Made by a program: the position numbers and the translations under genes. A model generated the notes under the pieces. The model saw only the letters and a program-made list of their open reading frames with translations, was not told the origin of the DNA and made no database searches. Below are positions 11,745 through 27,023 of a stretch of 64,000 nt of DNA, piece after piece. The DNA is taken from positions 1,228,082 through 1,292,081 of the forward strand of contig NZ_SJPF01000001.1 of the NCBI RefSeq assembly GCF_007859755.1, in the 5' to 3' direction. Every line of letters begins with the position of its first letter. The stretch's first letter is position 1. This DNA comes from Blastopirellula retiformator. Its GTDB lineage: Bacteria; Planctomycetota; Planctomycetia; Pirellulales; Pirellulaceae.

Positions 11745-13322
11745 TTACGTCGCGTTCCTTTCTGCGGCCAGGGCCAGCGTCCGATCAATGCGGGCCAGGC
11801 ACGAATCTTTCCCGACGATGTCGAGACAGTCAAAGAGTCCAGGACCAACCCCTTGGCCGGTCGTGGCGATGCGGACGGCGTGAATGATCTCGCCGATCTT
11901 GATTTCCTCAGAAGCGACGAAGTCATGCATCGTCTTGTCGAGGGTCGGCACGTCCCACGTTTCGACCACCGCGAGGGTCGCGCGGAACTTGGTCAGCAGG
12001 GCGAGTGCCTCAGGCGAACCCAAGCGTTTGTTGAACGCCTTTTCGTCGTACTTCATTTCTTCGTCGGCGACGAAGAAGTAATCGGCATACGCGATGATGT
12101 CGCCCATCACCTTCAGGCGATCGCCGCAGGCCTCGATGATGCGGGTCAGCTTGGGGCCGACTTCGCACGGCGCCGGATCGGCGACTAGGCCCGCCTTCTG
12201 CAGGTAAGGCAAGCAGGCGGCGGTCTTCTGCTTCAGCGGCAGTTTCTGCATGTAGCGATCTTGGAACGCCCACAGCTTTTTGCAGTCGAAGCTGGCTGGC
12301 GCTTTGGTGACGCGCTCGAGCGAGAAGTTGGCGATCATCTCTTCGATCGACAGGTCTTCGGTCTTGTCGTCCAGCGACCAGCCAAGCAGCACCAAGTAGT
12401 TGAGGATCGCCGCCGGTAGGTAACCGGTCAGCTCGTAGAAGTCGACGATCACCGGGTTAAACGTTTCGGCCGACGTGGTTAGGCCGATCTGATCGGCGAT
12501 CACTTGCCCATGTTCGTTCAGCCGCTTGAAGTCGGCGTTCTTCAGGTACTTCTCAAGCTTTCGCTTGCTTAGCTTGTTCTTGCTGCCGGGCTCGGCGACG
12601 TAAGGCAAGTGCGCGTATTGCGGAATATCGAAACCAAGCGACTGCCCGATGAAGATCTGCCGCGGGGTGTTCGACAGGTGTTCTTCGGCCCGGATCACGT
12701 GCGTGATCTTCAGGTCGTAGTCGTCGACGACGCTCGCCAGGTGGTACAAGCAGGTGCCGTCGGCCCGCTGGATGACGAGGTCGTTTTCTTTGCTCCACTG
12801 GAACTCAACGTCGCCGCGGACGCTGTCGGTGAAGGCGCAGACCCCTTCGCGCGGCATCTTCAGCCGGACGACGTGACTGCGGCCTTCCGCTTCCCACTTG
12901 GCGCGTTCCTCGGCGGTTTCGGCCATGTACTTGCGGCTGTATTGGAACGGTCGCTTTTCGGCGTCGGCCGCTTTCCGCTCGGCGTCCAGCTCTTCCGGCG
13001 TCGCATAGTCATAGTAGGCGTGACCGCTGTCGAGCAGCTGCTGGGCCGCTTGCTGATAACGCTCGAGCCGCTCGGATTGGTAGTACGGTTCGTACGGGCC
13101 GCCCACTTCGGGCCCTTCGTCCCAGTCCATGCCAAGCCAGCGAAAGCCGTGCAGAATGGGGGCCAGCGCTTCTTCGACGTTCCGCTGTTGGTCGGTATCG
13201 TCGATGCGCAAGATGAATTGCCCGCCGTGACGTTTGGCGTACAACCAATTGAACAGCGCGGTGCGAACCCCGCCGATGTGGAGATATCCGGTCGGGCTGG
13301 GAGCGAAGCGTGTGCGAACCAT
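11745..13322 (-). CDS. gltX: Glutamyl-tRNA synthetase
   Basis: The 525-residue class I synthetase has the HIGH-type motif HIGG at residues 15-18 within RFAPSPTGYLHIGGVRTALF, the DDTD motif shortly after, and the KMSKS-type motif KLSKRK near residue 250. It charges tRNA with glutamate in the cytoplasm. The length is at the upper end for bacterial GltX; about 30 residues come from a loop after KLSKRK. Whether it is discriminating or also charges tRNA-Gln cannot be told from the sequence alone. It lies between purF and rlmI on the same strand. Confidence 0.95.
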   Translation of the reverse strand: MVRTRFAPSPTGYLHIGGVRTALFNWLYAKRHGGQFILRIDDTDQQRNVEEALAPILHGFRWLGMDWDEGPEVGGPYEPYYQSERLERYQQAAQQLLDSGHAYYDYATPEELDAERKAADAEKRPFQYSRKYMAETAEERAKWEAEGRSHVVRLKMPREGVCAFTDSVRGDVEFQWSKENDLVIQRADGTCLYHLASVVDDYDLKITHVIRAEEHLSNTPRQIFIGQSLGFDIPQYAHLPYVAEPGSKNKLSKRKLEKYLKNADFKRLNEHGQVIADQIGLTTSAETFNPVIVDFYELTGYLPAAILNYLVLLGWSLDDKTEDLSIEEMIANFSLERVTKAPASFDCKKLWAFQDRYMQKLPLKQKTAACLPYLQKAGLVADPAPCEVGPKLTRIIEACGDRLKVMGDIIAYADYFFVADEEMKYDEKAFNKRLGSPEALALLTKFRATLAVVETWDVPTLDKTMHDFVASEEIKIGEIIHAVRIATTGQGVGPGLFDCLDIVGKDSCLARIDRTLALAAERNAT

Positions 13323-13436
13323 GGCGATCTGCTAGTGCGGACAGGAAGTCAAATCGAACCAACCAGCTTAAAGCGCCGGGCGGTCGCTCGCAAAGGGGCT
13401 AGCAGTTCGGAGAAGCGTTCAAGGGGAGCAGGAATA

Positions 13437-13481
13437 TTGGCGCCATGCTCTCGCGAAGACGCGATAAGAGCATGACGCCAA
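13437..13481 (-). terminator. Strong hairpin after purF
   Basis: Long complementary arms TTGGCG-CATGCTCT and AGAGCATG-CGCCAA surround a GC-rich inner stem, 17 bp after the purF stop. There is no T-run on the minus strand, so it may be an attenuator, an mRNA 3' stabiliser or a repeat rather than a true terminator. Confidence 0.5.
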
Positions 13482-13497
13482 GTGAGAAACAAATCCC

Positions 13498-15096
13498 TCA
13501 GGTCGCCGTCACCGCGGGGTCGCGGCGTTCGTAGGTTCGGCCTTCGCTGCCGCTCAGGCTGGCGTCGAGGGCGACCTGGTAGAGCTGTTCGCCGGCTGCC
13601 GTTGGGTACTCGCCGCTGATGCAGGCCTGGCAAAGTTGGCCGCCTGGCAAGTTGACCGCGCGGGCAATCGCCGGCCGCGGCAGGAACCGGACCGAGTCGG
13701 CGCCGAGCGCGAGCGCCATTTCGGCCTGGGCTTCTTCGGTCAGCTGGCCGTCCGGCAGAAACTTCGGCGCGAATAGTTCGCCAATCGTCGACATGTCGAT
13801 GCCGTAAAAGCACGGAGCGATGATCGGCGGGCAGGCGACGCGGACGTGAATCTCTTTGACGCCCCCTCGTTCGCGCAGTCGATCGAGCAGCACCCGCATG
13901 GTGGTGGAACGCACGATCGAGTCTTCGACCAAGAAGACCCGCTTGCCTTCCAACACTTCGCGGAGCGGGGTGTATTTGACTTCGGCGGCGCGGCGGCGTT
14001 GTTTGCCGGTCTCGATAAACGTGCGGCCCGAGTAGCGGTTGCGGATCAAACCTTCGCGGGACGGGATGCCCAGCTCAAACGCCATCGAGTCGGCGGCCGC
14101 TTTGCTGGTATCGGGGACCGGCACGACCAGCGTGTCTTCGTCGATCGTCACGCGGCCATCTTCCCGTTCCATCCGGGCCAACTCGACGCCCAGATTGGTG
14201 CGGGTCACATAGACGCTTCGTTCGTCCAGCGTACTGGCGACGTTGGCGAAGTAGATCCACTCGAAGAAGCAGTGCGCTTTGCGCGGCGACTCGGCGAATT
14301 TCTGAATCTCGAACTCGCCATTGGTAATCGTGATCGCGTGGCCGGGCTCCAGCGACTTGATGCTTTCGGGCTCAAAACCGAGGTTCAGCAGGGCGACGCT
14401 TTCGCTGGCCGCGGCGAACAGCGGGCCTTCGATCGCATAGCAGAGCGGCTTGATGCCGAGCGGATCGCGGGCGATCAGCATGTCCCCTTCGGCGTTCAGC
14501 ATCACCAAGCTGTACGCGCCGTCAAAACGTTGGCTCGCGTTTCGTAGCGCCTCGATCAGCGGCACCTTGCGATCGCCGTTCATCTCACGGCTCAGCTCGT
14601 GCATGATGATTTCGGTATCGGTCTCGCGGGCCAGGTGATGATCGTTGTCGGCCAGCAGGCGATCACGCAATTCTTTGTAATTGGCCAGCTGCCCATTGAA
14701 GGCGAAGCTGAACCATTTGTGCTTGAGCAAATGATGCCGCTCAAACGGTTGGGCGTAACTGCGATCGTCTTCGCCGCAGGTGGCGTACCGGACATGGCCA
14801 ATCGCGGCGCACCCGGCGTATTCCTTCATGAGCGCTTCGCTCTTGCCGCGATGCGACAGACGGAAGACTTCTCGCACCGTGCCGATGTCGCGGTGGGTGT
14901 CGATCAGCTGATTGCGACCCGGCATGTACGAAGTCATGCCGGCGGCCAGCTGTCCCCGGTTTTGGATGTCGAGCAACATCCGAGGCAGCAGCCGCGAAAT
15001 GTGCGCGGGGCCTTGATCGGGACAGAGCGGGCTCGGCTCGTCGCTGGGAAGGTGATAGACGGCGGCGATCCCGCACTCGTGATAAAGCTCGCTCAT
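13498..15096 (-). CDS. purF: Amidophosphoribosyltransferase
   Basis: The 532-residue enzyme catalyses the first committed step of purine synthesis (PRPP plus glutamine to phosphoribosylamine). The N-terminal glutaminase domain has the catalytic cysteine in CGIAAVYH at residue 8, plus GHVRYATCG and [10 protein letters not shown]. The C-terminal phosphoribosyltransferase domain has the PRPP loop [18 protein letters not shown] near 385-400. Cys8 follows a short leader, MSELYHE, that must be removed to expose a catalytic N-terminus. PurF often has such a propeptide. Cysteines near the C-terminus ([14 protein letters not shown]) fit Fe-S-containing PurF. Confidence 0.95.
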
Positions 15097-15442
15097 GAAC
15101 GACTCGCGGTGAAAACCCTTGCCGGATCAAGACTTACGTTGCCGCTAGCAACGCTATCTACCCAGGAAATTCTACGGAAAGAGGCGGGTTCTTCATTCTA
15201 GGATTGCCGCTGCAAAGACTCAACCGTCCTAAGACGCGGATTTCCGCTTGTTAGCGAAGTAATTCGCCCCTCTGGTGGCGTGCGTCGCCAGTCTGGAATT
15301 GCCATCTTCCGGAAATTATAATGAATGCCATTGATCTTGCGCTTTAACTCGCAATAATCGTGGCCTCCTTGCCATAGCGTCACGGCGATCCTGCACAAAA
15401 TTTTTATCCCTCCTATTTTGTTTGATTCGGAAAGCCCGACCC
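15097..15442. other. Divergent intergenic region purF / DUF1559 gene
   Basis: This stretch of about 345 bp has no coding frame of note. A TATAAT lies at 15317-15322 on the plus strand without a properly spaced -35; it could serve the DUF1559 gene with a leader of about 115 bases. Nothing else is recognised. Confidence 0.35.
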
Positions 15443-16519
15443 ATGAAACGTTCCGCATTTACGCTGGTCGAGCTGTTGGTGGTAATCGCCATCATCGGCG
15501 TTTTGATTGCGCTGCTCTTGCCGGCAGTGCAGCAAGCCCGCGAAGCCGCGCGGCGGATGCAGTGCAGCAACAAGCTGAAGCAGATTGGTTTGGCGCTGCA
15601 CAACTATCACGACACCTTTGGCGCCTTGCCGGCCCGCCAAGGTGGTACCAGCGGTCCGGCCGACCCCGACTATCTGCAGCACAATGCAAGTCGGCTCAGC
15701 GGTTGGATTGGTACGCTGCCGTTTCTGGAATATGGAAATCTGTACGATCAGATCAAATCGCCCCAGACGTTCGGCGGCATCGACTTCAACCCCTACGGCG
15801 GCGGTCCGTGGAAGACGGAGTATCACCTGTGGCGAACGAAGATCGAGGCGCTGCGCTGCCCGTCGGATGGCGCTGTTAGCGAAGCGTCCGGCAGCGGTTT
15901 CTGCAACTACGCCTTTTCGATGGGAGACGCTCCTCGCCGATCGCATCACGCCATGTCCAATGGCATGTTCGGTGCACTTAGCTGGTTTAAGTTTGGCGAC
16001 GTGACCGATGGCCTGAGCAACACGCTGGCGATCGCCGAGCGGACCGTCGGCGTCGATTCGACCAAGATTATTGGCGGCGGCATCGTCTTGGCGGCCGATG
16101 CCTGGTCGGGCTCGGTGACCGACAGCAACGCGCACTTGGTCACCCCCGCCGTCTGTGCGGCGAAGGCGGGCGCCGGCAAGCGGTATCTGACTGGTCTGGA
16201 TACGCGTACCTGGCCGGGACGCCGCTGGGCGGATGGCGCTAATCCGTACGCCGGCTCGATCACCACGATCCTGGCGCCCAACTCGCCGTCGTGCAGTTCC
16301 GACTTTGGCTGGGATGGCTCGGCCGCGATTCTTTCCGCCAACAGTTTTCATCCCGGCGGCGCCAACGGCCTGCTCGGCGACGGATCGGTACACTTCTATA
16401 CCGAAACGATCGACACCGGCAATCTTTCGGTCTCGCCGACCAATGGCGGTCCTTCGCCGTATGGCGTCTGGGGCGCGATAGGCACCAAGAGCGGCGGCGA
16501 AGCGAACGCCTCGCTGTAA
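15443..16519 (+). CDS. DUF1559 prepilin-like protein 1
   Basis: The 358-residue protein has a type IV prepilin N-terminus, [19 protein letters not shown], with a short basic leader, the processing site before F, the helix, then [16 protein letters not shown]. The remainder is the DUF1559 domain with HNYHDTFGALPAR, DVTDGLSNTLAIAERT and the C-terminal FHPGGANGLLGDGSVHF. This family is hugely expanded in planctomycetes and its function is unknown. Export and cleavage by a prepilin peptidase are likely. I chose the ATG at 15443. The lipoprotein gene follows 85 bp later, a frequent pairing. Confidence 0.92.
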   Translation: MKRSAFTLVELLVVIAIIGVLIALLLPAVQQAREAARRMQCSNKLKQIGLALHNYHDTFGALPARQGGTSGPADPDYLQHNASRLSGWIGTLPFLEYGNLYDQIKSPQTFGGIDFNPYGGGPWKTEYHLWRTKIEALRCPSDGAVSEASGSGFCNYAFSMGDAPRRSHHAMSNGMFGALSWFKFGDVTDGLSNTLAIAERTVGVDSTKIIGGGIVLAADAWSGSVTDSNAHLVTPAVCAAKAGAGKRYLTGLDTRTWPGRRWADGANPYAGSITTILAPNSPSCSSDFGWDGSAAILSANSFHPGGANGLLGDGSVHFYTETIDTGNLSVSPTNGGPSPYGVWGAIGTKSGGEANASL

Positions 16520-16604
16520 ATGATTCCTTCCTCTCCCCACTGCGGCGTCCGTGGCGACGCCGCAGTCCTGCCTGCCTGCCATCCATTCCTAAGGACCATT
16601 CCTC

Positions 16605-17060
16605 ATGCGATATGCAATTTTCGCTGCGGCGCTGGTTGCGCTCGTGATAACCGGTTGTAGTAACGACTTGATGCCCGGGGCTGTTGAAGCGAAGGGAGTC
16701 GTCTTGCTCGACGGGGCTCCGCTTGAAGGCGCGACGGTCATTTTTTCTCCGGTCGGCGACGGACGTTCGGCCAACGGCCGGACCGATGAAGCGGGCGCTT
16801 TCTCGCTGGGAACGATCGCGCCAGCCGATGGCGTCTTGCCGGGCGAGTATCAGGTCGCCATCATCAAATCGCTCGTCGACGAGTCGCGTGCGACCGAAGA
16901 TCCGATGGCGATCCAAGAGAGAACCGGTCAGTTTCCCCCTTCGCCGCCAAACATCAATATCGTCCCGCGCAAGTTCGCCAATCCCGAGAGGTCGGGGCTG
17001 ACGGCCAGCGTTTCGGACGAAGGGACGACCGAATTGAAGTTTGAGATCGAGACGAAGTAA
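16605..17060 (+). CDS. Carboxypeptidase-regulatory-like lipoprotein
   Basis: The 151-residue protein has a lipoprotein signal (LVALVITGCSN, with the lipid-modified cysteine at 18). A single transthyretin-like/carboxypeptidase regulatory fold follows: GVVLLDGAPLEGATVIFSP, then NGRTDEAGAFSLGT and LPGEYQVAII. Such short lipoproteins typically sit beside DUF1559 genes in planctomycetes. They probably stay attached at the cell envelope; no enzymatic activity is expected. It ends just before a bidirectional terminator. Confidence 0.85.
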   Translation: MRYAIFAAALVALVITGCSNDLMPGAVEAKGVVLLDGAPLEGATVIFSPVGDGRSANGRTDEAGAFSLGTIAPADGVLPGEYQVAIIKSLVDESRATEDPMAIQERTGQFPPSPPNINIVPRKFANPERSGLTASVSDEGTTELKFEIETK

Positions 17061-17087
17061 CGTAGCGACGCGATTACGACAACGCAC

Positions 17088-17120
17088 AAAAAAGCCCCGG
17101 CAATTGCTCGGGGCTTTTTT
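17088..17120. terminator. Bidirectional rho-independent terminator
   Basis: A perfect stem pairs AAAAAAGCCCCG with CGGGGCTTTTTT around a 9-base loop, between convergent genes. T-runs in both directions serve the lipoprotein gene (+) and the CsrA-REC gene (-). Confidence 0.92.
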
Positions 17121-17147
17121 CGTGGAAAGTCAATTGTGGAACGCGTC

Positions 17148-17924
17148 TTACCAACCGGCGATCGCCGGTTGGGCGCGTTGGCTGACCGCTTCGACGATTT
17201 CGGCTGGGTCGAGCGGTTTGCGGAACCAGGCGTCGAAGCGATCTTCGGACTGGTCGCCATCGTCGGCAAAATGCTGCGGATCGCTGCCGGTCACGGCGAA
17301 GACTTTCAGTTTGCCCATGCGGGGATCGTTGCGGAGCACGCGCAGCGTAGCCGGGCCGTCGAACCGCGGCATGCTGAGGTCCATCAGCACGTAGTCGGGC
17401 AAGTCGTTCAGCGCCAGGTATTCGAGCGCCGCCTGGCCATCTTTGGCGACCGAGACGTGAAAGCCGTACATCCGCAACAGCCCGGCCAGCAGTTCGCGCT
17501 CGTTGTCGTCATCTTCGACCACCAGCAGGTTGCGCGACTTCTCTCCCTCTTTCTCGCGGCGGGTCGCTGTGCGATCTTGGCCGACGGCGGCGTCCAGCTC
17601 TTTCAGTTCCGCCAGCAGGCGTTTGAGCGTATCGACCGCTTCTTCGGTCATGCCGGCGTCGATCTGCCGGCTGCAGAGGTGCAGGCCAAGGTTGAGCGTG
17701 TTCAGGCGATTGCGAAACTGATGAGTGCCGATCAGGCTAGGCGCCTGGCGTTTCATGGCTTCCAGTTCGGCGTCACTGCAGGCGTCGGGACGCATGATCG
17801 ACACTTCTTTGGGAGCGTCGACGCCGATCTTCACCATTTTGCCCCGCACTTGGAGCAACTCGACGGTGATGTTGAGATTGGGGAAAACGATCTTCTCTTT
17901 TGCGCGGCGAGAAAGCACGAGCAT
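17148..17924 (-). CDS. CsrA domain fused to DHp-like segment and receiver domain
   Basis: The 258-residue protein has three parts. Residues 1-47 are a full CsrA domain (MLVLSRRAKEKIVF...GVDAPKEVSIMR) keeping the RNA-contact positions L4, R6, R7 and R45. Residues 60-115 are helical and carry HQFRNRLNTLNLGLHL, which looks like the H-box helix of a kinase DHp domain, with His68 in place. Residues 131-250 are a complete receiver domain with acidic 138-140, phospho-acceptor D182, T212 and K236. CsrA normally is a free dimer of about 60 residues binding GGA sites in mRNA leaders. The fusion would let phosphorylation control RNA binding or dimerisation. The start at 17924 is set by the CsrA N-terminus and a GGAG site. 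A hybrid kinase is divergent. Confidence 0.9.
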   Translation of the reverse strand: MLVLSRRAKEKIVFPNLNITVELLQVRGKMVKIGVDAPKEVSIMRPDACSDAELEAMKRQAPSLIGTHQFRNRLNTLNLGLHLCSRQIDAGMTEEAVDTLKRLLAELKELDAAVGQDRTATRREKEGEKSRNLLVVEDDDNERELLAGLLRMYGFHVSVAKDGQAALEYLALNDLPDYVLMDLSMPRFDGPATLRVLRNDPRMGKLKVFAVTGSDPQHFADDGDQSEDRFDAWFRKPLDPAEIVEAVSQRAQPAIAGW

Positions 17925-18154
17925 TGTAGGTCTCCATACCAGGGCCGCAATCGCGGCAAATAACATCCTTATGGGGCTCGCTCAACGTAGAGGCGATCAC
18001 CCCGCGACAACTCGGCTCATTCCTTAAGCCGGAGTGCGGATCAATCCTGGCGCGGCTATCCATTGCGCACGCATCATTGCGAGCTTTCAATGTAGAGGCA
18101 GTTACGGTTTTCCGGCAATAGGAAAAATGTTCGCATTTCTTTCGTCGCCGACGC

Positions 18155-18181
18155 TTGGCGGAATGGTCGCTCTGGTATGAT
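18155..18181 (+). promoter_or_regulatory. Possible promoter of the hybrid kinase
   Basis: An extended -10, TGGTATGAT, lies at 18173-18181 with TTGGCG 15 bases upstream of the hexamer. It would give a leader of roughly 65 bases to the ATG at 18251, whose ribosome site contains a GGA, the core CsrA recognition triplet. Confidence 0.35.
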
Positions 18182-18250
18182 AAATTCCAATGCCGCTCTA
18201 GCATTCGCTACGGCGTTCTTCTCCGCAGAAAAGCCAAATGGAGTGCTAGC

Positions 18251-19756
18251 ATGCGAAACGGCTGGAACGAGCAATTTCGCGGTTTCATGTTCGCCATCGC
18301 GGCCACCGCGGCCGCACTGTGGGTGAGGACGTTGCTTCACCCCATCTTGGAAGATCGGCTCCCCTTTGGCGTCTTCTATCTCTCGGTCATCATCAGCGCC
18401 TGGCTCGGCGGAACGGCGTCGGCCGTTGTGGCGATGGTGCTGGGAATGGTGGCTGCGGCGCACTTTATCATTCCGCCGCAATCGAGTCTGTTGATCGCCG
18501 AGCCGGCCGACTGGGTTTCGCTGTTGATCTACGCGATCGTCGGCGCGGTGACGATCGTCACTTTCGAGAAAACCCGCTGCGAGCAACGGGAAGCCGAACA
18601 GCGCTCTTGCGAAAATCAAGAGCTGACCGAAACGCTGAAACGTTCCGATCTGCAGAAAGACGAATACCTGGCGCTGCTGGCCCACGAGCTGCGCAATCCG
18701 CTCGCTCCGATTGCGACCAGCGTCGACCTGATGGCCCGCTGTCGTGATGATGGGCGGCGGTTTGACGCGCTGCGCCGGGCGGTGCTGCGTCAACTGTCGC
18801 AGTTGGTGCGGATCGTCGACGACCTGCTGGATGTCTCGCGCTATCTGCAGGGGAAGATGCGGCTGTTGCGGGATCCGTTTGACCTGCGCGAAGCGGTTGG
18901 CGCCGCCGTCGAAATGGTGCAGCCGCAAATCGACGAACGTCAGCACGACGTCCGGCTGCTGATTCCGGATGTGGCGATCGGCGTTAGTGGCGATCGCGTG
19001 CGGCTGGTTCAGGTCGTCTCGAACCTGCTGAGCAACTCGGCCAAGTACACGCCCCGCGGCGGACGAATCTGCATCGATCTGCGGGCCGAAAACGGCGAGG
19101 CGGTCCTTTCCGTCTCGGACAACGGCATCGGCATCGCCGACGATGACCGGCGGCGGATTTTTGAAGCGTTCGCCCAGGTCGATTCTTCGCATACCCGCGA
19201 TCATGGCGGATTGGGGCTAGGGTTGGCTTTGGTGAAGCAATTGTGCGAACTGCATGAGGGCACGGTCGACGTCATCAGTCGTGGGCCAGGAAAGGGGAGC
19301 CGCTTTGAAATTCGGTTGCCGCTGGTCGAGTTGCCCACGCCGAGCGTGCGCGTCGTCGAAAAACAGGAGTCGATCGATCTAGAGTCGACGTCGGTGCTGA
19401 TCGTCGATGACAATCGGGACGCGGCTGAAACGCTTTCGATGTTGCTAACCTTTGAAGGGATGAACGCGACGGTCGCCTACGATGGACCGATGGCGCTCGA
19501 TCTGCTGCGGAAACAGAAGCCGGCGTTTATCTTGCTCGATATCGGGCTGCCGGGGATGGACGGGTACGAGGTGGCGCGGCGAATTCGGGCCGATCATGGT
19601 CAGGATGGGGTGAAGATTATCGCGCTAACTGGTTGGGGCGGTCCCGAAGATCGGCGCCGCACCAAGGAGGCGGGATTCGACGATCATGTCGTCAAACCGG
19701 TCGATCCCGCCAATCTGGTCTCGTTATTGCGGGGCGCGCAGCCGCAATCGGCGTAA
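18251..19756 (+). CDS. DUF4118 hybrid sensor histidine kinase with receiver domain
   Basis: The 501-residue membrane kinase has three to four helices at residues 11-105 of the DUF4118/KdpD type (LPFGVFYLSVIISAWLGG), a short coiled coil, HisKA with LLAHELRNPLAPI (His145), HATPase with N, G1 (DNGIGI) and G2 (GLGLGLALVKQL) boxes, and a C-terminal receiver with LIVDDNRDAAETL, LLDIGLPGMDGYEVA, LTGWG and KPVDP. No periplasmic sensor domain exists, so the membrane helices probably sense. The divergent CsrA-REC gene is the obvious candidate partner (inference). I chose the ATG at 18251 after GGAG. Confidence 0.92.
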   Translation: MRNGWNEQFRGFMFAIAATAAALWVRTLLHPILEDRLPFGVFYLSVIISAWLGGTASAVVAMVLGMVAAAHFIIPPQSSLLIAEPADWVSLLIYAIVGAVTIVTFEKTRCEQREAEQRSCENQELTETLKRSDLQKDEYLALLAHELRNPLAPIATSVDLMARCRDDGRRFDALRRAVLRQLSQLVRIVDDLLDVSRYLQGKMRLLRDPFDLREAVGAAVEMVQPQIDERQHDVRLLIPDVAIGVSGDRVRLVQVVSNLLSNSAKYTPRGGRICIDLRAENGEAVLSVSDNGIGIADDDRRRIFEAFAQVDSSHTRDHGGLGLGLALVKQLCELHEGTVDVISRGPGKGSRFEIRLPLVELPTPSVRVVEKQESIDLESTSVLIVDDNRDAAETLSMLLTFEGMNATVAYDGPMALDLLRKQKPAFILLDIGLPGMDGYEVARRIRADHGQDGVKIIALTGWGGPEDRRRTKEAGFDDHVVKPVDPANLVSLLRGAQPQSA

Positions 19757-19848
19757 CTCATTTGCTGGCGTCCCCTTGTCGCCAATGCGGCGGGCATCGA
19801 TAACTACGGTTTGTCGATTCCCGCTGTTTCAAGCCTTTCTTTCCACCT

Positions 19849-20997
19849 ATGACCGATCTTTTGCGCCAGGAAATCGCCGCGACCGCCGACTTGATCGTCG
19901 TAAAAGTGGGAACCCGCGTTCTCACCGCTCCCGACGGAACGCTCAATCGCCCCCGCATCGCTCAATTTGCCGAAGAAATGAGCCGGCTGCTGGACGCCGG
20001 GCGCAAGATGGTGATGGTATCTAGCGGGGCGGTCGGCGCCGGGATGGATCGGTTGAAGCTGAAACAGCGGCCGACTGATCTGGCCCAATTGCAGGCGGTC
20101 GCCGCCGTCGGTCAAGCTCGCCTGATTGAAGCGTACGATCAAACGCTGGCGGTCCATGGTCGGCATGGGGCCCAGGTCTTGCTGACCGCCGAGGACCTGG
20201 ATCATCGGGTTCGCTATCTGAACATTCGCAACACGCTGGTCTCGCTGCTCGAGTTTGGGGTGCTGCCGATCATCAACGAAAACGACACCGTCGCCGTCGA
20301 CGAGTTGATGACCACGTTTGGCGATAACGATCGCCTGGCGGCCCGCGTCACCAATCTATTGCGTGCTCCGCTGTTGGTCATTTTGTCGGACGTCGCCGGC
20401 TTCTACGATCGCTCGCCCGACGATCCCGACGCGCAGGTGATTCCGGTCGTGCAGAAGTTTGACGATCACCTGATGTCGTTCGTCCGCGACAAAAAGACCG
20501 GCCTCTCGAAAGGAGGCATGGCCAGCAAGTTGGAAGCGGCCCGCCTGGTGACGACCGCCGGCGAGAACGTGATTATCGCCTCAGGGCGCGATCCGCAGGC
20601 CCTCACGAAGATCGTCAATGGCGAGCAGATCGGCACGCTGTTTCTGCCGCAGGGGAAAACGGTCTCGCCGCGGAAACGCTGGATCGGCTTTTCGGTCGAA
20701 CCGCGGGGACGGCTCATCGTCGACGACGGCGCCAAGCGAGCGCTCGAAGCGTCGGGACGCAGTCTGCTGGCGATCGGCGTGGTAGGCGTCGAAGGAGACT
20801 TCGAGAAAGGGGACGTCGTCCGCATTTGCGGCAGCGACGGAACCGAAATTGCTCGCGGGCTAACGAATTACTCGGCGCCGGAAGTGGCCCGCATTCGGGG
20901 CATTCAAAGTGATCGGATTAGCGAGATCCTGGGGCATTGCCCGTATGTCGAATTGATCCACCGCGACAACCTCACGCTGAGTCGCGCGGCGAATTAG
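19849..20997 (+). CDS. proB: Glutamate 5-kinase
   Basis: The 382-residue enzyme phosphorylates glutamate in the first step of proline synthesis. The amino-acid-kinase domain shows VVKVGTRVLT, VSSGAVGAG, PIINENDTVAVDE and FGDNDRLAARV, and the allosteric-type loop TGLSKGGMASKLEAA. A C-terminal PUA domain follows from about residue 280 (RGRLIVDDGAKRAL, GDVVRI). The length is standard for PUA-containing ProB. proA is not in the window. The gene follows the kinase gene by 92 bp on the same strand, but no functional link is evident. Confidence 0.95.
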   Translation: MTDLLRQEIAATADLIVVKVGTRVLTAPDGTLNRPRIAQFAEEMSRLLDAGRKMVMVSSGAVGAGMDRLKLKQRPTDLAQLQAVAAVGQARLIEAYDQTLAVHGRHGAQVLLTAEDLDHRVRYLNIRNTLVSLLEFGVLPIINENDTVAVDELMTTFGDNDRLAARVTNLLRAPLLVILSDVAGFYDRSPDDPDAQVIPVVQKFDDHLMSFVRDKKTGLSKGGMASKLEAARLVTTAGENVIIASGRDPQALTKIVNGEQIGTLFLPQGKTVSPRKRWIGFSVEPRGRLIVDDGAKRALEASGRSLLAIGVVGVEGDFEKGDVVRICGSDGTEIARGLTNYSAPEVARIRGIQSDRISEILGHCPYVELIHRDNLTLSRAAN

Positions 20998-21009
20998 TTC
21001 GTCGATCGG

Positions 21010-21351
21010 CTACGGCTTCATCTCGATGTCGAACGGGTTGACCCCTTCTTCGACGTTGATTGTCAGGCCGCTCTTCCGCGGGTCGCGGTATTTGACCGGG
21101 ATGTCTTTGGCGACCACCCGCACGACCATCTGGGACGGATCTTCCGGCGGCGGATTCTCGGGAGGCAGAATTGTCACGGTATAAGCGCCGGTTCGCACCG
21201 GCGTTTGCGTCACCTATTTTCCTTCGGCGTCGAGCGATTCAGAGATCCCGCTGCCAAGTTCGCCGCAGCAAAAGGTGATGTCGCCGCTGGTGACCGGCTT
21301 GCCGTTGAAGGTGACCCGGCCTTCGATCGTGCCGGCATTGCGAGACGAGTT
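21010..21351 (-). pseudogene. Broken carboxypeptidase-regulatory-like lipoprotein gene
   Basis: On the minus strand a single frame reads GTIEGRVTFNGKPVTSGDI, then SLDAEGK, a TAG stop at 21214-21216, then TQTPVRTGAYTVTILPPENP. Together this is one complete small lipoprotein-type beta domain interrupted by a nonsense codon. Upstream of 21351 the frame meets another stop and no signal peptide is readable in frame. The 67-codon part after the stop could initiate at a GTG (21213) but lacks the start of the fold. A degraded member of the 16605 family is the best reading. Confidence 0.7.
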
Positions 21352-21453
21352 GGCAACCGCGCTTCATTGTCACGATTGTGCATAGAATTGCAGCAATTAA
21401 ATAAAATTACTGCGTGCCGGATGCGCAACAGGCGTTGGCCCGCCAACCGCCGC

Positions 21454-22590
21454 TCAGTCTTGGATCAGCGGCAGCGGAATGTCATCAGGCCGCAGCGTTG
21501 GCGACGGTTTGGCGCTGGGGCCATCCTGTCGGAGCTTGCCGCCAGCAGCCGGAGAGGCGAGCGGCAGTTTGCTCTCTTTTGGCGGGCCGAGCAGGGTCAG
21601 TTTGACCGTATTCCAGAAGCCGCTCAGCGAGCCGAACGTGGCGTCGACGGCGCTTGGTTCGTAGCCGCTATGGACCATGCAGTCGGCGCACTTGGGGTTG
21701 CCGCTGGCGCAGCCGTAGTTTTCCCACGCGACCGACGACATCAGTTCGTCAAACGACTCGCAATACCCTTCGTCCATCAGGTAGCACGGTTTCTGCCAGC
21801 CGAACAAGTTGTAGGTAGGATTACCCCACGGCGTGCACTCCAGCTGGTAGTTCCCCTTGAGGAACTCGAGGAAGAGGGGGCTTTGGTTGAACCGCCAGTT
21901 GCGAGCGTGATCAAGCAGTTGCCGGAACAGCGTCTTCGTTTCGTTTCGCGCCAGAAAGTGATCTTGGTCCGGCGCCTTCTCATAACGATAGCCGGGCGAG
22001 ATCATCATTCCTTCGACGCCCAATTGCATCATGTCGTCAAAGAAGTCGCGGATCCGCTCGGGCTGGACGCCGTCGTAGATCGTGGTGTTGGTCGTCACGC
22101 GGAAGCCGCGAGCCACCGCCGCTTTGATCGCTTGAGCGGCGATGTCGTAGGTTCCTTCGCGGCAGACGGCGGCGTCATGCTCTTCGCGGGGGCCGTCCAT
22201 GTGGACCGAGAATGACAGGTACTTGCTGGGCGTGAAGCTGGGGAGCGCCTTTTCCAGCTTCAGGGCGTTGGTGCAGAGGTAGATGTACTTCTTGCGGGCG
22301 ACCAGGCCTTCGACAATCTCGTTGATCTGCGGGTGCAGCAGCGGTTCGCCGCCAGGGATCGAGACGATCGGGGCGCCGCATTCTTCGACCGCCTGAAAGC
22401 ATTGCTCCGGCGTCAGATGGCGACGAAGCGTTTCGACCGGATGTTGGATCTTGCCGCAGCCGGCGCAGGCCAAGTTGCAGCGAAACAGCGGTTCCAACAT
22501 CAAGACCAGCGGATAACGCTTTTGCCCAGACAGGCGCTTCTTCAGCACATAGCTGGCGACAGTCCACATTTGCGAGACGGGTACGCCCAT
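21454..22590 (-). CDS. hpnH: Adenosyl-hopene transferase HpnH (radical SAM)
   Basis: The 378-residue radical SAM enzyme has CNLACAGC (Cys38, 42, 45) binding the 4Fe-4S cluster and a GGEPLLHP motif. Additional C-terminal cysteines (CASGNPKCADCMVHSGYEP) match HpnH. It joins the 5'-deoxyadenosyl radical to diploptene, making adenosylhopane, the first step toward C35 extended hopanoids. It starts 9 bp after the squalene-hopene cyclase stop, so the two are translated from one message. The final 60 residues are proline-rich and not conserved in the family. Confidence 0.92.
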   Translation of the reverse strand: MGVPVSQMWTVASYVLKKRLSGQKRYPLVLMLEPLFRCNLACAGCGKIQHPVETLRRHLTPEQCFQAVEECGAPIVSIPGGEPLLHPQINEIVEGLVARKKYIYLCTNALKLEKALPSFTPSKYLSFSVHMDGPREEHDAAVCREGTYDIAAQAIKAAVARGFRVTTNTTIYDGVQPERIRDFFDDMMQLGVEGMMISPGYRYEKAPDQDHFLARNETKTLFRQLLDHARNWRFNQSPLFLEFLKGNYQLECTPWGNPTYNLFGWQKPCYLMDEGYCESFDELMSSVAWENYGCASGNPKCADCMVHSGYEPSAVDATFGSLSGFWNTVKLTLLGPPKESKLPLASPAAGGKLRQDGPSAKPSPTLRPDDIPLPLIQD

Positions 22591-22599
22591 TATCAGTTC

Positions 22600-24675
22600 C
22601 TAACTTCGCGCCGTCGCGCGGTTCCATTCGGCCAGAGCCAAGAGGGGAAAGTAAATCGGGTAGTAGTGATATTTCAGATAGAAGACGCGGGGGAAACCGG
22701 TTCCGGTGAACTCGACTTCGTCCCAGGCGCCATCCGGCCGCTGCGTATCGATCAGGTAGCGGACGCCGTTTGCGACTTGCGGCAACTTCTCACCGCCCGC
22801 AGCGATCAAGCCCAACAGCGCCCAGGCCGTTTGCGAAGCGGTCGGAGAGCCTTGGCCGCGCAGCGATGGGTCTTCGTACGTTTCGCACGACTCGCCCCAG
22901 CCGCCGCACGCTTGTTGATGAGCGAGCAGCCAGAGCTTGCCTTGTTCGATCGCCGGATCGTCGGCGGGTACGCCGACGGCTCGCAGGCCGACCAAACACT
23001 GCCAGGCGCCATAGATATAGTTAACGCCCCAGCGACCAAACCACGAGCCGTCGGAGAGCTGATTGGCGCGGATGTAGGCGACCGCCTTGCGGACGACGTC
23101 GCCGACCTTGCCAGGCGAGTTGATCGTGACGCCTAGCCGGCCGAACGACTCGATCACGCGGGCCGACAGATCGGGCGTGCTTGGATCGATCATCGCGTTG
23201 TGATCGGCGAACGGCACGTGACAGAGGAACTCGGCGTCGTTGTTCTTATCGAACGCCCCCCAACCGCCGTCATGGTTTTGCATCGCGGTCATCCACGCGA
23301 CGGCGCGGCGAGTCGCCGCAGCCGCCTGTTCCATCATCGCAGCGGATGAACCAGCGAGCCGCTCGGCAATGCCGCGTCCGCCAACAACGACGCTGGTGTT
23401 GGCCAGCGTGTCGCCTGGATGCAGCTCGAGCGAAATATCGGCGGCCGCCAATTGGTCGACCAGCGCCATGATTCCCATCGACGTATCGTCGTTATCGGGA
23501 TAGAAAGCGTTTTCGTATTCGAAGAACCAGCCGCCTGGTTCGCAGGCGACGTTGTTGCTCCAGTCGCCGGCGACGCGAACTTCTTTCGACAGCAGCCACT
23601 CGACGCCTCGGCAGGTCGGTTCCTGCGAAAGTCCTGAGCCAGCGGCGGCCAAAGCTCGCAGCGAGATCGACGTGTCCCAGACCGGCGACTTGCAAGGTTG
23701 CAAGCGAGTCTCGGCGCCGTCGTCAATCGCCAGCCGCTTTAGATGATCGAGGAAGTACTGGACCTCCGCGCTTTGTTTATCGTAGCCGAGCGTCAGCAGC
23801 GCGATCACGCCCCAGACGATCGGCGGAAAAATCGCGCCGGGACCGTCGCTCTTTTCGCAGCGGTCGAGCAGCCACTTTTCAGCCTTTTGCAGCGCGCGTT
23901 TGCGAAGCGGGCGGAGTTTGTATTTTTCGAGCAGCTTCAGTCCGCTGTCCGCGGTGCGGAAAAAGTGATCCCAACTGAACAAGCCCTGCGGTTTGTCGAG
24001 ACCAGGGCAGCGAAGCTCGGGCCAGTCTTCCGGCTTGTTAACGAACAGCTCGTGGATCGAAACGTCGGCGGCGATCTCACGCGTTGGGCGATGGGCCCAG
24101 ACGATCGCCAGCGGTACGAAGATTGTTCGCGACCAGGAGCTGATCCGATAAATGTTGATCGGCGACCAGTTGGGCAGCAGGACCATCTCGGGCGGAACGG
24201 CCGGGCAGAGTTCAAACGGGATCTGACCGAGCAGCGCTAGATAGAACCGGGTGAAGCTGTTGACCTTGTCGGCGCCGCCGGCTTCGAGGATCGCGTTGTG
24301 GGCGCGAATCATGTACTCGGCGGTCGGATCATGCCCGGTCAGCTTGAGGGCGAAATAGGCTTTGACGCTCGAGCCAACATCGATCGGCGCGCCTGGGAAT
24401 TGCGTCCAGGCGCCGCTCGGCTCTTGTTGTTTCAGCAGTTGGGCGGCGCACCGCTGGGCGATTTCAGAACGTTCTTCTCGGAGCCAGGCGAGCAGCAAGA
24501 TGTACTCGCTCTGCAGGATCGAGTCCCCTTCGAGTTCGGCGCACCAATGGCCGTCGGCATGTTGATGGGCGAGCAGCCAGTCGCGAGTAGCGGCGATCGA
24601 GGAGCCCGCTAATGCGCGCAGGTCGAGAAAGTGCTGCGAGATGCGATTGCTCGAGGTGGGGGAGGCGCCTTCCAT
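22600..24675 (-). CDS. shc: Squalene-hopene cyclase
   Basis: The 691-residue membrane-associated triterpene cyclase has the catalytic acid motif as DNDD at residues 394-397 (PDNDDTSMG), where most SHC enzymes have DVDD. QW-type repeats are spread through both alpha-barrels (DGHWCAELEG, HDGGWGAFD, SDGSWFGRWGVNYIYG, QACGGWGESCE, PDGAWDEVEFTGTGFP). It cyclises squalene to hopene. I chose the ATG at 24675, preceded by AAGGAAGG, over an upstream frame start at 24762. It forms an operon with hpnH. Asparagine at the second position of DXDD is within the tolerated X. Confidence 0.92.
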   Translation of the reverse strand: MEGASPTSSNRISQHFLDLRALAGSSIAATRDWLLAHQHADGHWCAELEGDSILQSEYILLLAWLREERSEIAQRCAAQLLKQQEPSGAWTQFPGAPIDVGSSVKAYFALKLTGHDPTAEYMIRAHNAILEAGGADKVNSFTRFYLALLGQIPFELCPAVPPEMVLLPNWSPINIYRISSWSRTIFVPLAIVWAHRPTREIAADVSIHELFVNKPEDWPELRCPGLDKPQGLFSWDHFFRTADSGLKLLEKYKLRPLRKRALQKAEKWLLDRCEKSDGPGAIFPPIVWGVIALLTLGYDKQSAEVQYFLDHLKRLAIDDGAETRLQPCKSPVWDTSISLRALAAAGSGLSQEPTCRGVEWLLSKEVRVAGDWSNNVACEPGGWFFEYENAFYPDNDDTSMGIMALVDQLAAADISLELHPGDTLANTSVVVGGRGIAERLAGSSAAMMEQAAAATRRAVAWMTAMQNHDGGWGAFDKNNDAEFLCHVPFADHNAMIDPSTPDLSARVIESFGRLGVTINSPGKVGDVVRKAVAYIRANQLSDGSWFGRWGVNYIYGAWQCLVGLRAVGVPADDPAIEQGKLWLLAHQQACGGWGESCETYEDPSLRGQGSPTASQTAWALLGLIAAGGEKLPQVANGVRYLIDTQRPDGAWDEVEFTGTGFPRVFYLKYHYYPIYFPLLALAEWNRATARS

Positions 24676-24791
24676 GCATTCCTTCCTTGCGTCGACGAAA
24701 ACGAAGGCTAGACGCGATCCTACGCGTTCTAACGAATCATCAAGGTAGGCGAGCCAGACCAATCTGGCAAGAGCGACGGGTTAGGAGAACG

Positions 24792-27023
24792 TTATGGAAC
24801 GACCTCGTAGAACTCGCCCCAGGGCTGTTGCGGCTGGTTTTCGTCGGGATTGGCAGGCAACTCGGCGGGGCGGATGACCCCTTGGGCGACCAGTTCGGCA
24901 AAGAAGTCAGGCGTGACGAACTCGGCGAAGCCATAGTTGCCGGGACTGCGAAACCGGGCAATTTCGCTCCAGCTTACGTAGATATGGCTGACTTTGCGGG
25001 CGTGGAGCAGCTCTTTCCGCTCGGCCGCCGACTTGCCGACTAGCCCCACCAGGGGAGAGGCGTCAAAGCAGGTGTGGTAATCGATCGGCGTCTGCATATA
25101 GAAGACGTCCGCCTTGCCCTCGACGATCGCTTTGTGGTCCGCGGGGACCAACTCGGCGAGTAGGCCGGGATCGGGTCCGGCGTTGGCCTCTTTTAACAGC
25201 TGATAGTCGGTGAAGTAAAAGGTAGGCGCCAGGAAGGAGTTCCGCCAGTTGATCCACAAGAAGCAAATCGCCAAACCAACCGCCGCCAGCGAACTACAGA
25301 CGGCGCGCCAACCGGCCGCCGAAATCCGCGCCGCGGCGTAGCCTGCCAACAAGGCGACGACCGGCGCCAGAGGAATCAAAAAGCGATCGTAGCGATGGGT
25401 GAAAAGCCACCAGATGGCGAAGTAGGTTACGGCATACAGCAACAAGCGCCAGGCGATGGCGTCTCTGATCGAGCGATCTTCCTTCTCTTCAGGCAAGCGT
25501 TGCGGTTGCCAGATCGCCAGACCCAGCAGCACGATCGCCGTCACAGCGAGCGGAAAGAGAGCGACGTTGGTCCAGTCGCTGGCGAAAGCGACCTTTTTGA
25601 TCGCGTTGATCAGCAGGGCCGACGTGACGCTGTGGCCGTCGGCGTCGGTCGGCACGGCATGGGCGGCTCGCCACTGAGCGACTTGCTCCGGCGTGCGGAT
25701 CGAATCGGGAAAGATCGAACCTGCCAGCGGATAGACCGGGTTGCCGGTGTAGACGACGTTCTTGATCAGCCACGGGGCAAACAGCAGCGTCACCCCAATC
25801 GTAAAGGCGATCGCCGACTTCAGATTAAGCCGCCGTCCCTCCACCGCTATCCAGACGGCCAGCGGCATTACCAGCAGCGGCAATGCCGGGTACTTACAGG
25901 CAGTCGCCATCCCAGCCATCAGGCCCGCCAACAGTGCAAGCCGCGGTAGCGCGATCGTCGCCGCAGGATCATCGCTGCGCTGCGCCTGAAACCAAACGAT
26001 TGCGGCAAAGATCGTCGCGACCGTGTAGAACGCCCAGACGCCGTCAACCAGTCCATAGACGGCGACCAGTACGATCCAGGGAGTACCGACCACGACAATC
26101 GCCGCGATCTGCCCGGCGTAACTGCCAGCGATGCGTCGGGCGGCGCAGTAAGCGGCCAGCGCGGTAAGCGGAGCGTAGAAGCTGATCAAGGTCTTGCCGA
26201 CCAGCGCGCCATAAAACCACGCCTGGTCGCTGGGCCAGATTGTCATCGGCAGCAGGGCCAACATCTCGGCGCCCATCGGCAAGCCGCTGTAAGCGTTGTA
26301 CGACTCGACGGCGATTCGCCCGGTGGTGAGCCATTCGGTCGGTAGTCGCAGGTGATACTCCAGCACATCGTATTCGTACGGCGGCATCATTCCGCCGAGC
26401 AGCGTGCAGAGGACGATTGGCGCGGCGGCGGCGATCCAGATCCAGGGGCTCGGTTCGCGGGCCGCTTCCGTTTCGCTGCGGGGCGTTCGCTCGCGATACC
26501 AATCCCATCCGCCCCAACCGGCCAGTCCCAACAGCGGCAAGACAATCAGCGCCGGGTAATGCAACAAGCCGACAAAGCCGATCACGAATGTCCAGAGCGA
26601 GACCGTCGCCAATCCCAAGGCGGCGGCGAACACCAACGTCTCCAGCCGCGATAGTAGCCCTGTCAAACCGATCCGAGACAACAAACAGCGGCCGACCAGC
26701 GTGGCGACCAGCATGATCATCGCCGCCAGCACAAAGACTGGCGTGCGCTGCGTGAAGAAGGGGACCGGATCGATCAGCAGATCGGCCCAGGGGCCGAGCA
26801 CCAGCGGGAAGTTGCCGAGGATCGTGAACAAGACGGTCAGTCGATCGGCCGGCTCGCCCTGAAAGACGGGGATCGGCGACTGGAAATAGACGATCAGGTA
26901 GGCGAAGCCGAGCAGGGCCAACAGCGCCGCCGGGGCGAAGCGGATCAGATCGCTACTTGCGAGAGCGGGTTCGCTGCTGGGGGCGGAAGAAGAGTTTCGC
27001 TCGCGGCGTGTTTTTTTCGACAT
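24792..27023 (-). CDS. Multi-pass membrane glycosyltransferase-like protein (GT39/ArnT type)
   Basis: The 743-residue protein has a basic N-terminus and about 12 hydrophobic segments between residues 30 and 600. A soluble C-terminal region of about 130 residues ends AELPANPDENQPQQPWGEFYEVV. The loop after helix 1 holds acidic residues, and PPYEYDVLEYHLRLPTEWLTTG near 215-235 resembles the substrate loop of GT-C enzymes that use polyprenyl-phosphate sugars (DUF2723/PMT_2/RgtA types). It lies 116 bp upstream of the cyclase on the same strand. A link to hopanoid or lipid glycosylation is possible but not shown. Confidence 0.7.
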   Translation of the reverse strand: MSKKTRRERNSSSAPSSEPALASSDLIRFAPAALLALLGFAYLIVYFQSPIPVFQGEPADRLTVLFTILGNFPLVLGPWADLLIDPVPFFTQRTPVFVLAAMIMLVATLVGRCLLSRIGLTGLLSRLETLVFAAALGLATVSLWTFVIGFVGLLHYPALIVLPLLGLAGWGGWDWYRERTPRSETEAAREPSPWIWIAAAAPIVLCTLLGGMMPPYEYDVLEYHLRLPTEWLTTGRIAVESYNAYSGLPMGAEMLALLPMTIWPSDQAWFYGALVGKTLISFYAPLTALAAYCAARRIAGSYAGQIAAIVVVGTPWIVLVAVYGLVDGVWAFYTVATIFAAIVWFQAQRSDDPAATIALPRLALLAGLMAGMATACKYPALPLLVMPLAVWIAVEGRRLNLKSAIAFTIGVTLLFAPWLIKNVVYTGNPVYPLAGSIFPDSIRTPEQVAQWRAAHAVPTDADGHSVTSALLINAIKKVAFASDWTNVALFPLAVTAIVLLGLAIWQPQRLPEEKEDRSIRDAIAWRLLLYAVTYFAIWWLFTHRYDRFLIPLAPVVALLAGYAAARISAAGWRAVCSSLAAVGLAICFLWINWRNSFLAPTFYFTDYQLLKEANAGPDPGLLAELVPADHKAIVEGKADVFYMQTPIDYHTCFDASPLVGLVGKSAAERKELLHARKVSHIYVSWSEIARFRSPGNYGFAEFVTPDFFAELVAQGVIRPAELPANPDENQPQQPWGEFYEVVP

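Follow-up and report, generated by a model that had tools for sequence, protein, structure and literature searches.

A conserved CsrA–DHp–receiver fusion of Planctomycetia and a proposed phosphorelay onto an mRNA-binding protein

The fusion gene and its divergent kinase

In a 64,000-nucleotide stretch of the Blastopirellula retiformator genome (hereafter the window; contig NZ_SJPF01000001.1, positions 1,228,082 to 1,292,081), an open reading frame (ORF) joins a CsrA domain, a helical hairpin with a conserved histidine and a receiver (REC) domain in one chain, P0001. The gene lies divergent from that of a hybrid histidine kinase, P0002. Here we describe the family to which P0001 belongs, the resemblance of its hairpin to the dimerization and histidine phosphotransfer (DHp) domain of the neighbouring kinases and the phosphorelay that would end on it. 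The features of the locus are as follows.

17148–17924, minus strand: CsrA–DHp–REC fusion gene (P0001), 258 residues (ORF and Pfam)
17778–17924, minus strand: CsrA domain, residues 1–49, with the RNA contacts R6 and R45 (Pfam CsrA, 54.2 bits)
17580–17729, minus strand: DHp-like helical hairpin, about residues 66–115, with the H-box HQFRNRLN (AlphaFold2 helices; family-profile match to the DHp of neighbouring kinases)
17721–17723, minus strand: codon of His68
17175–17531, minus strand: receiver domain, about residues 132–250 (Pfam Response_reg, 59.2 bits)
17379–17381, minus strand: codon of Asp182
17929–17940, minus strand: leader element GGTATGGAGACC, directly before the fusion ATG, a possible GGA hexaloop hairpin with the ribosome site
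18251–19756, plus strand: divergent hybrid histidine kinase (P0002), 501 residues, DUF4118–HisKA–HATPase_c–REC, with His145 and Asp430 (Pfam)
18656–18844, plus strand: HisKA (DHp) domain of P0002, residues 136–198 (Pfam HisKA)
19394–19729, plus strand: C-terminal receiver of P0002, residues 382–493, the proposed intermediate phosphate carrier (Pfam Response_reg)

The fusion ORF can be opened upstream to 17966; the ATG at 17924 was taken as the start because GGAG lies upstream of it and the protein then begins in the CsrA-like manner, MLVLSRR. Both named domains scored above the curated Pfam cut-offs, CsrA over residues 1–49 (54.2 bits against a gathering score of 27) and Response_reg over residues 134–247. 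This bears out the first-pass annotation, made from the sequence alone, which had read a CsrA domain, an H-box-like helical segment and a complete receiver in a single chain; R6, R7 and R45 are present, and H68, D182, T212 and K236 lie at the residues that it had named. The receiver also has the acid pair E137–D138 and a tryptophan, Trp233, at the switch position. Some 80 residues between CsrA and receiver are left unnamed by Pfam, and a Pfam scan of P0001 found no HATPase_c domain. An AlphaFold2 model from 11 sequences, with a mean predicted local distance difference test score (pLDDT) of 68, places one helix at residues 66–89, with His68 at its beginning, and another at 93–124; block means in this hairpin were 55 at residues 61–70, 68–77 over 71–110 and 54 at 111–120. 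The receiver was modelled mostly with confidence (block means 70–90, except 59 at 221–230), and the CsrA part showed CsrA-like strands at low confidence (45–57). As the first-pass annotation had also stated, the neighbouring kinase possesses a receiver of its own, its Pfam order placing REC behind DUF4118, HisKA and HATPase_c; the H-box histidine is residue 145 and the receiver aspartate residue 430.

A conserved family with a DHp-derived hairpin

Relatives were sought with a profile (A2) of the CsrA and hairpin part, made from 10 sequences. At an E value of 1e-19 or better it matched 97 of 397 genomes drawn from the class, taken to be Planctomycetia, in 62 of 186 genera, and nearly all matches span the full profile in open frames of about 250–340 codons. 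The fusion is thus kept in relatives, and these matches rule out an oddity of the window alone. When 392 genomes from across the phylum were searched, the strongest of the listed matches from other classes reached 3.7e-15 and covered the CsrA part only. A scan of genome contigs with short peptide patterns, insensitive to distant relatives, found full-length fusions at 10 of 17 loci, all planctomycete records. Most matching genomes hold one match, and G671 holds four. The source genome has 13 CsrA places, three of them in CsrA–DHp–REC fusions: the window's own and two (L009 and L010) that lie 11 kb apart on another contig.

The set used below comprises 115 loci (the window, L015–L018 and L084–L193), including 110 stretches around the class-level profile matches and two weaker phylum-wide ones; L188 and L189 gave no fusion ORF. 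One of the 119 fusion ORFs was an overlapping duplicate, leaving 118 distinct proteins (103 clusters at 90% identity) that include P0001 and its two paralogues. Hidden Markov models detected a receiver in frame in 114 of the 118, and the complete receiver site (acid pair, Asp, Ser/Thr and Lys) is present in 110, that of P0001 among them. A frame error separating the CsrA and receiver parts, a hazard raised by the first-pass annotation, and a chance fusion are both ruled out by this recurrence, since CsrA and hairpin share one frame in all 118 proteins.

Conservation within the CsrA domain centres on R6 (118 of 118) and R45 (117 of 118); L4 is present in 102 and R7 in 78, with lysine at position 7 in a further 14. 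R6 and R44/45 are the RNA-contact arginines of CsrA proteins. From the longer list of contacts drawn up earlier (L4, R6, R7 and R45), R6 and R45 therefore hold in the homologues, and R7 falls away as a family-wide contact. The variation at position 7 would suit a different role, in which receiver and hairpin govern protein contacts, by sequestering or localizing CsrA partners, and the CsrA fold has lost its RNA binding; so would the divergence of the domain in P0001, which scores below the NCBIfam cut-offs for CsrA equivalogs (47.5 against 73 bits and 47.2 against 70.1 bits). We consider such a role distinctly improbable, given the near-universal retention of R6 and R45 and the frequency of L4, and the persistence of both arginines in each of the eight fusions that have lost His68 and the receiver site together.

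His68 occurs in 104 of the 118 fusions, and among these Asn72 is found in 101, Leu74 in 102 and Arg71 in 78. A profile of the His-bearing hairpins was aligned by hhalign with a profile of 80 DHp domains from kinases within two genes of a fusion (four others lacked an H-box by the pattern used). The match had a probability of 97.3% and an E value of 1.8e-11, and extended over 45 columns and both helices, the kinase histidine being aligned with His68; the reversed profile gave 0.7% and the best of 30 column shuffles 12.1%. The hairpin is therefore homologous to the kinase DHp, and the reading of His68 as a real H-box histidine stands. Single hairpins gave fainter signals: among 67 His-bearing segments, Pfam HisKA matched weakly in 23 (best E value 2.8e-4), TPR_19 in six and SPOB_a in three, and NCBIfam gave scattered weak matches, with a histidine kinase model in three. 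A TPR- or PPR-like repeat was considered and rejected, as TPR_19 reached 8.2e-4 at best and the DHp match is stronger, covers both helices and includes the H-box; the best profile matches in the PDB were to designed PPR proteins at profile positions of about 24–42, that is, the turn and second helix. We take the hairpin to be a DHp-derived domain that lacks its ATPase partner.

The same 45-column alignment would accord with a route in which the neighbouring kinase's catalytic domain phosphorylates His68 in trans from ATP and His68 then feeds Asp182. This we hold to be very unlikely, the least probable of the alternatives weighed here. In kinases the acid that follows the H-box histidine is needed for transfer from ATP; it is present in at least 90% of 44 neighbouring kinases and in just 46 of the 104 His-bearing fusions. 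Moreover, the receiver of the hybrid kinase would be unnecessary.

The survey also turned up several further arrangements. The CsrA set of the source genome is large, with short CsrA-like proteins and one tandem pair in addition to the three fusions; the pair lies in one 137-residue frame (L011:3436-3846, plus strand; source genome C1:449459-449806) and is possibly a single-chain CsrA dimer. At L192 (source genome C2:702981-726758) two CsrA–DHp–REC genes, one with and one without an H-box, stand 11 kb apart in a dense signalling cluster of CheB–CheR–PAS kinases and several receivers; close pairs of fusions likewise occur in L090, L095, L096, L106 and L109. Proteins of 151 residues at L141:6186-6644 and L181:5975-6433 consist of CsrA and hairpin without receiver or H-box histidine. 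At L118:6167-8011 the fusion sits within a 615-codon open frame with the CsrA start far inside, either a longer protein or merely an open frame upstream.

Kinase pairing and the proposed relay

A gene with a HATPase domain directly adjoins the fusion in 66 of 118 cases (55 of 103 clusters) and lies within two genes in 79. Among control genes of the same loci, taken at least four genes from a fusion and with the window, L192 and L193 left out, 10 of 212 had such a neighbour at ±1. The synteny with a kinase first noted in the window thus recurs in much of the family; gene calls were greedy ORFs, so that small false ORFs can mask adjacency. For scale, the source genome has 53 HATPase_c matches, an estimated one per 100 genes, and 25 of the 53 are hybrid. 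Fusions with His68 have a kinase within two genes in 74 cases, and the nearest one is hybrid in 71 of them, or in 61 of 62 after clustering. The 79 nearest kinases reduce to 44 non-redundant sequences, all with HisKA and HATPase, 40 with REC, 27 with CheB and CheR and eight with DUF4118. The histidine phosphotransfer domain (Hpt) is found in at most two (the 25 commonest families do not include it, and the rarest of these has two members). Since the kinases mostly carry REC and hardly ever Hpt, the next histidine carrier of a relay would lie outside the kinase. In a quick maximum-likelihood tree of the fusions, from which the hairpin columns were excluded, kinase length class changes nine times and gene orientation or arrangement 15 times, and the hybrid state only three times, a pattern that points to fusions having re-paired with hybrid kinases more than once.

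Loss of His68 goes together with loss of the receiver site. Both are present in 104 fusions, neither in eight, the receiver site alone in six and His68 alone in none; over the 103 clusters the counts are 90, seven, six and none. This association has a Fisher p of 4e-9, uncorrected for relatedness, and on the tree the histidine changes state seven times and the receiver six. The kinase neighbourhood differs in these classes: four of the six fusions with an intact receiver and no His68 have a kinase within two genes, the nearest being non-hybrid in all four. Of the eight that have lost both, seven lack any kinase at that distance and the eighth has a non-hybrid one.

The receivers of the two partners can also be told apart. 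At the switch position, three residues before the lysine, tryptophan is found in all 104 His-bearing fusions, and 71 partner-kinase receivers have His (63), Tyr (seven) or Asp (one). In the relevant passage of PMC9981736, CtrA-type terminal receivers all have a conserved aromatic residue, tyrosine, at this position and CckA-type intermediate receivers are variable, with the caution that intermediate receivers do not form a single group.

From these findings we consider it reasonably probable that a phosphorelay runs from the kinase histidine through the kinase receiver and His68 to Asp182, and so ends on an RNA-binding protein. P0002 would autophosphorylate on DHp His145 and pass the phosphate to Asp430 of its own C-terminal receiver; His68 on the hairpin of the fusion would take it from there and hand it to Asp182. 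The phosphorylated receiver, via the conserved Ser/Thr212–Trp233 switch pair, might then alter the contact of the CsrA dimer with GGA-containing mRNAs. Transfer by the fusion from receiver to histidine to receiver we infer from gene pairing and joint loss; the remaining transfers, the dimer and its binding of RNA are likewise what the sequences would lead one to expect. The proposal made earlier, that a two-component phosphorelay could act directly on a CsrA protein, thereby gains a likely donor in the hybrid kinase and an H-box in His68, with phosphotransfer and RNA binding keeping their conditional standing.

A simpler route would be direct phosphorylation of Asp182 by the kinase histidine, the hairpin serving as a dimerization and phosphatase module in which His68 and Asn72 dephosphorylate Asp182 or the kinase receiver. 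CsrA acts as a dimer and DHp hairpins dimerize, and the residue kept at H+4 in 101 of 104 fusions is asparagine, the phosphatase residue of HisKA kinases. Such phosphatase activity also requires the H+1 acid, which fewer than half of the His-bearing hairpins possess, and the direct route leaves unexplained both the hybrid nature of nearly all nearest kinases and the non-aromatic switch position in 64 of 71 partner receivers. We regard it as unlikely. The four-step relay fits better because the kinases mostly carry a receiver and no Hpt, because the fusions carry a histidine and no ATPase, because the histidine is kept solely alongside a working receiver, and because the line with an intact receiver and no histidine has a non-hybrid nearest kinase where one exists.

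Several points weigh against the relay. For the hairpin, both hhalign profiles were selected for the H-box, Pfam does not recognize HisKA in P0001's own hairpin, and a search of the PDB with the hairpin profile gave 43 sequences up to an E value of 10, with neither a histidine kinase nor a phosphotransferase among them; the gathering itself was biased, the H-box being present in nine of the 10 rows of the search profile. For joint loss and pairing, the six fusions with receiver and without His68 form a single branch (support 93), so that the association with kinase type on the His-less side rests on one event. Independent-pairs tests were not significant for histidine and receiver (p 0.125–0.25, with too few pairs on well-supported branches) or for histidine and hybrid state (two pairs, p 0.5–1). 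Many branches of the tree are weak, with 53 of the 115 left open, which makes the counts of changes soft, and weak and long branches together render many placements unsure. As to the kinases, the Hpt count covers kinase chains, and separate Hpt proteins elsewhere in the genomes were not searched for; the source-genome kinase that corresponds to those of the His-less, receiver-intact fusions, three genes from the fusion of L009, carries REC–REC–Hpt. There is no kinase within two genes of 30 of the 104 His-bearing fusions or of two of the six His-less, receiver-intact ones, and one of the latter (L090) also has a hybrid kinase at −2. Finally, three His-bearing fusions of one genus (L170, L173 and L174) have only a non-hybrid PAS kinase, two genes away.

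At the RNA end of the proposed relay, the fusion ATG is preceded by the leader GGUAUGGAGACC, identical in the four genus members compared (the window and three others). This leader could display GGA in a six-base loop, and that the hairpin at 17929–17940 is an autoregulatory site is speculative. Across the family, a predicted hairpin loop contains GGA in 36 of 118 fusion leaders; 20 flank shuffles gave 24.75 on average (standard deviation 4.0, highest 34). This modest enrichment is no more than suggestive of autoregulation. Feedback on the kinase mRNA, which the first-pass annotation had thought conceivable from a GGA in its ribosome site, found no support: the GGA at 18240, kept in four genus members within a conserved leader, is the Shine–Dalgarno sequence of the kinase itself, no separate site was shown, and the hairpin-loop test covered fusion leaders only. 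An Rfam search of the limited stretch 13000–25000 gave no match to Csr-type small RNAs (sRNAs). Further along the window, two minus-strand ORFs at 21454–24762 look like hopanoid genes, one resembling by eye a radical SAM protein of the HpnH type and the other a squalene–hopene cyclase.

Relation to known regulators and meaning for Csr control

Regulators with a CsrA output were classified earlier, reportedly by Galperin in 2006. A 2007 paper names as a class the response regulators whose output domain is CsrA, with reference to an earlier classification (PMC2222644). The first-pass view that CsrA and receiver domains normally occur apart therefore has to be qualified, as their union has been in print since at least that year. 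These regulators, like P0001, have receiver and CsrA in one chain; the PMC2222644 passage that names them mentions no DHp-like domain, kinase pairing or mechanism, unlike what we describe. A 2025 review counts E. coli CsrA among the orphan response regulators (PMC12471899). One carbon storage regulator chain of known structure is 61 residues long, which leaves no room for a receiver. Searches of open-licence PMC papers, which leave most subscription journals uncovered, brought up no account of a CsrA–DHp–REC chain or its kinase pairing. The general kind is thus already known, and the CsrA–DHp–REC chain with its specific relay would, on sequence grounds, be a new variant.

Each part of the proposed system has a known counterpart. 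P0001 shares with CsrA and RsmA the CsrA fold recognized by Pfam and the R6 and R45 contacts, and differs from them in its sub-equivalog scores and in about 200 extra residues of signalling domains; they are controlled by sequestering sRNAs, whereas P0001 would be controlled by phosphorylation. Spo0B is a dimeric DHp-type phosphotransferase whose DHp histidine stands between two receivers. The same holds for the kinase-derived DHp histidine of ChpT (PMC3433190) and PhyT (PMC5898713), and would hold for the hairpin of P0001. Unlike these three, P0001 has no catalytic-like ATPase domain (the hairpin runs to 124 and the receiver starts at 131), and its putative phosphotransferase shares one chain with the terminal receiver and the output. 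To our knowledge, REC–ANTAR regulators have no built-in DHp. Among them, EutV and PdtaR likewise place an RNA-binding output under two-component control (PMC7602753 and PMC12471899). Their RNA-binding fold is another one, and their mode is antitermination. Between the fusion and the non-hybrid kinase of L170, and likewise of L173, lies a gene for a receiver whose tail looks by eye like ANTAR, so that RNA-binding response regulators of two kinds may adjoin each other there. BarA–UvrY and GacS–GacA, with CsrB and RsmZ, also bring two-component input to CsrA. Their link runs via sRNA transcription (PMC4682653), and in P0001 it would be covalent and direct.

Overall, the CsrA–DHp–REC family is real and conserved and probably functional, and an outside signal probably switches its RNA binding directly. 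More tentatively, and somewhat short of what we would claim with confidence, the lineage as a whole may employ a direct phosphorelay onto mRNA-binding proteins, with DHp phosphotransferase, terminal receiver and CsrA in each chain and, in some genomes, several kinase-neighboured copies; one paralogous line would have dropped the histidine relay and stands beside non-hybrid kinases. CsrA proteins are global translation regulators, and the best-studied two-component input to them runs through transcription of sequestering sRNAs. If the proposed relay is true, sensory inputs could reach translation with no sRNA in between. A phosphorelay that acts covalently on the CsrA chain could gain in speed and could permit several separate Csr channels per cell. 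It would also offer a clean system for how phosphorylation controls RNA binding, with the kinase pairing supplying the partners.

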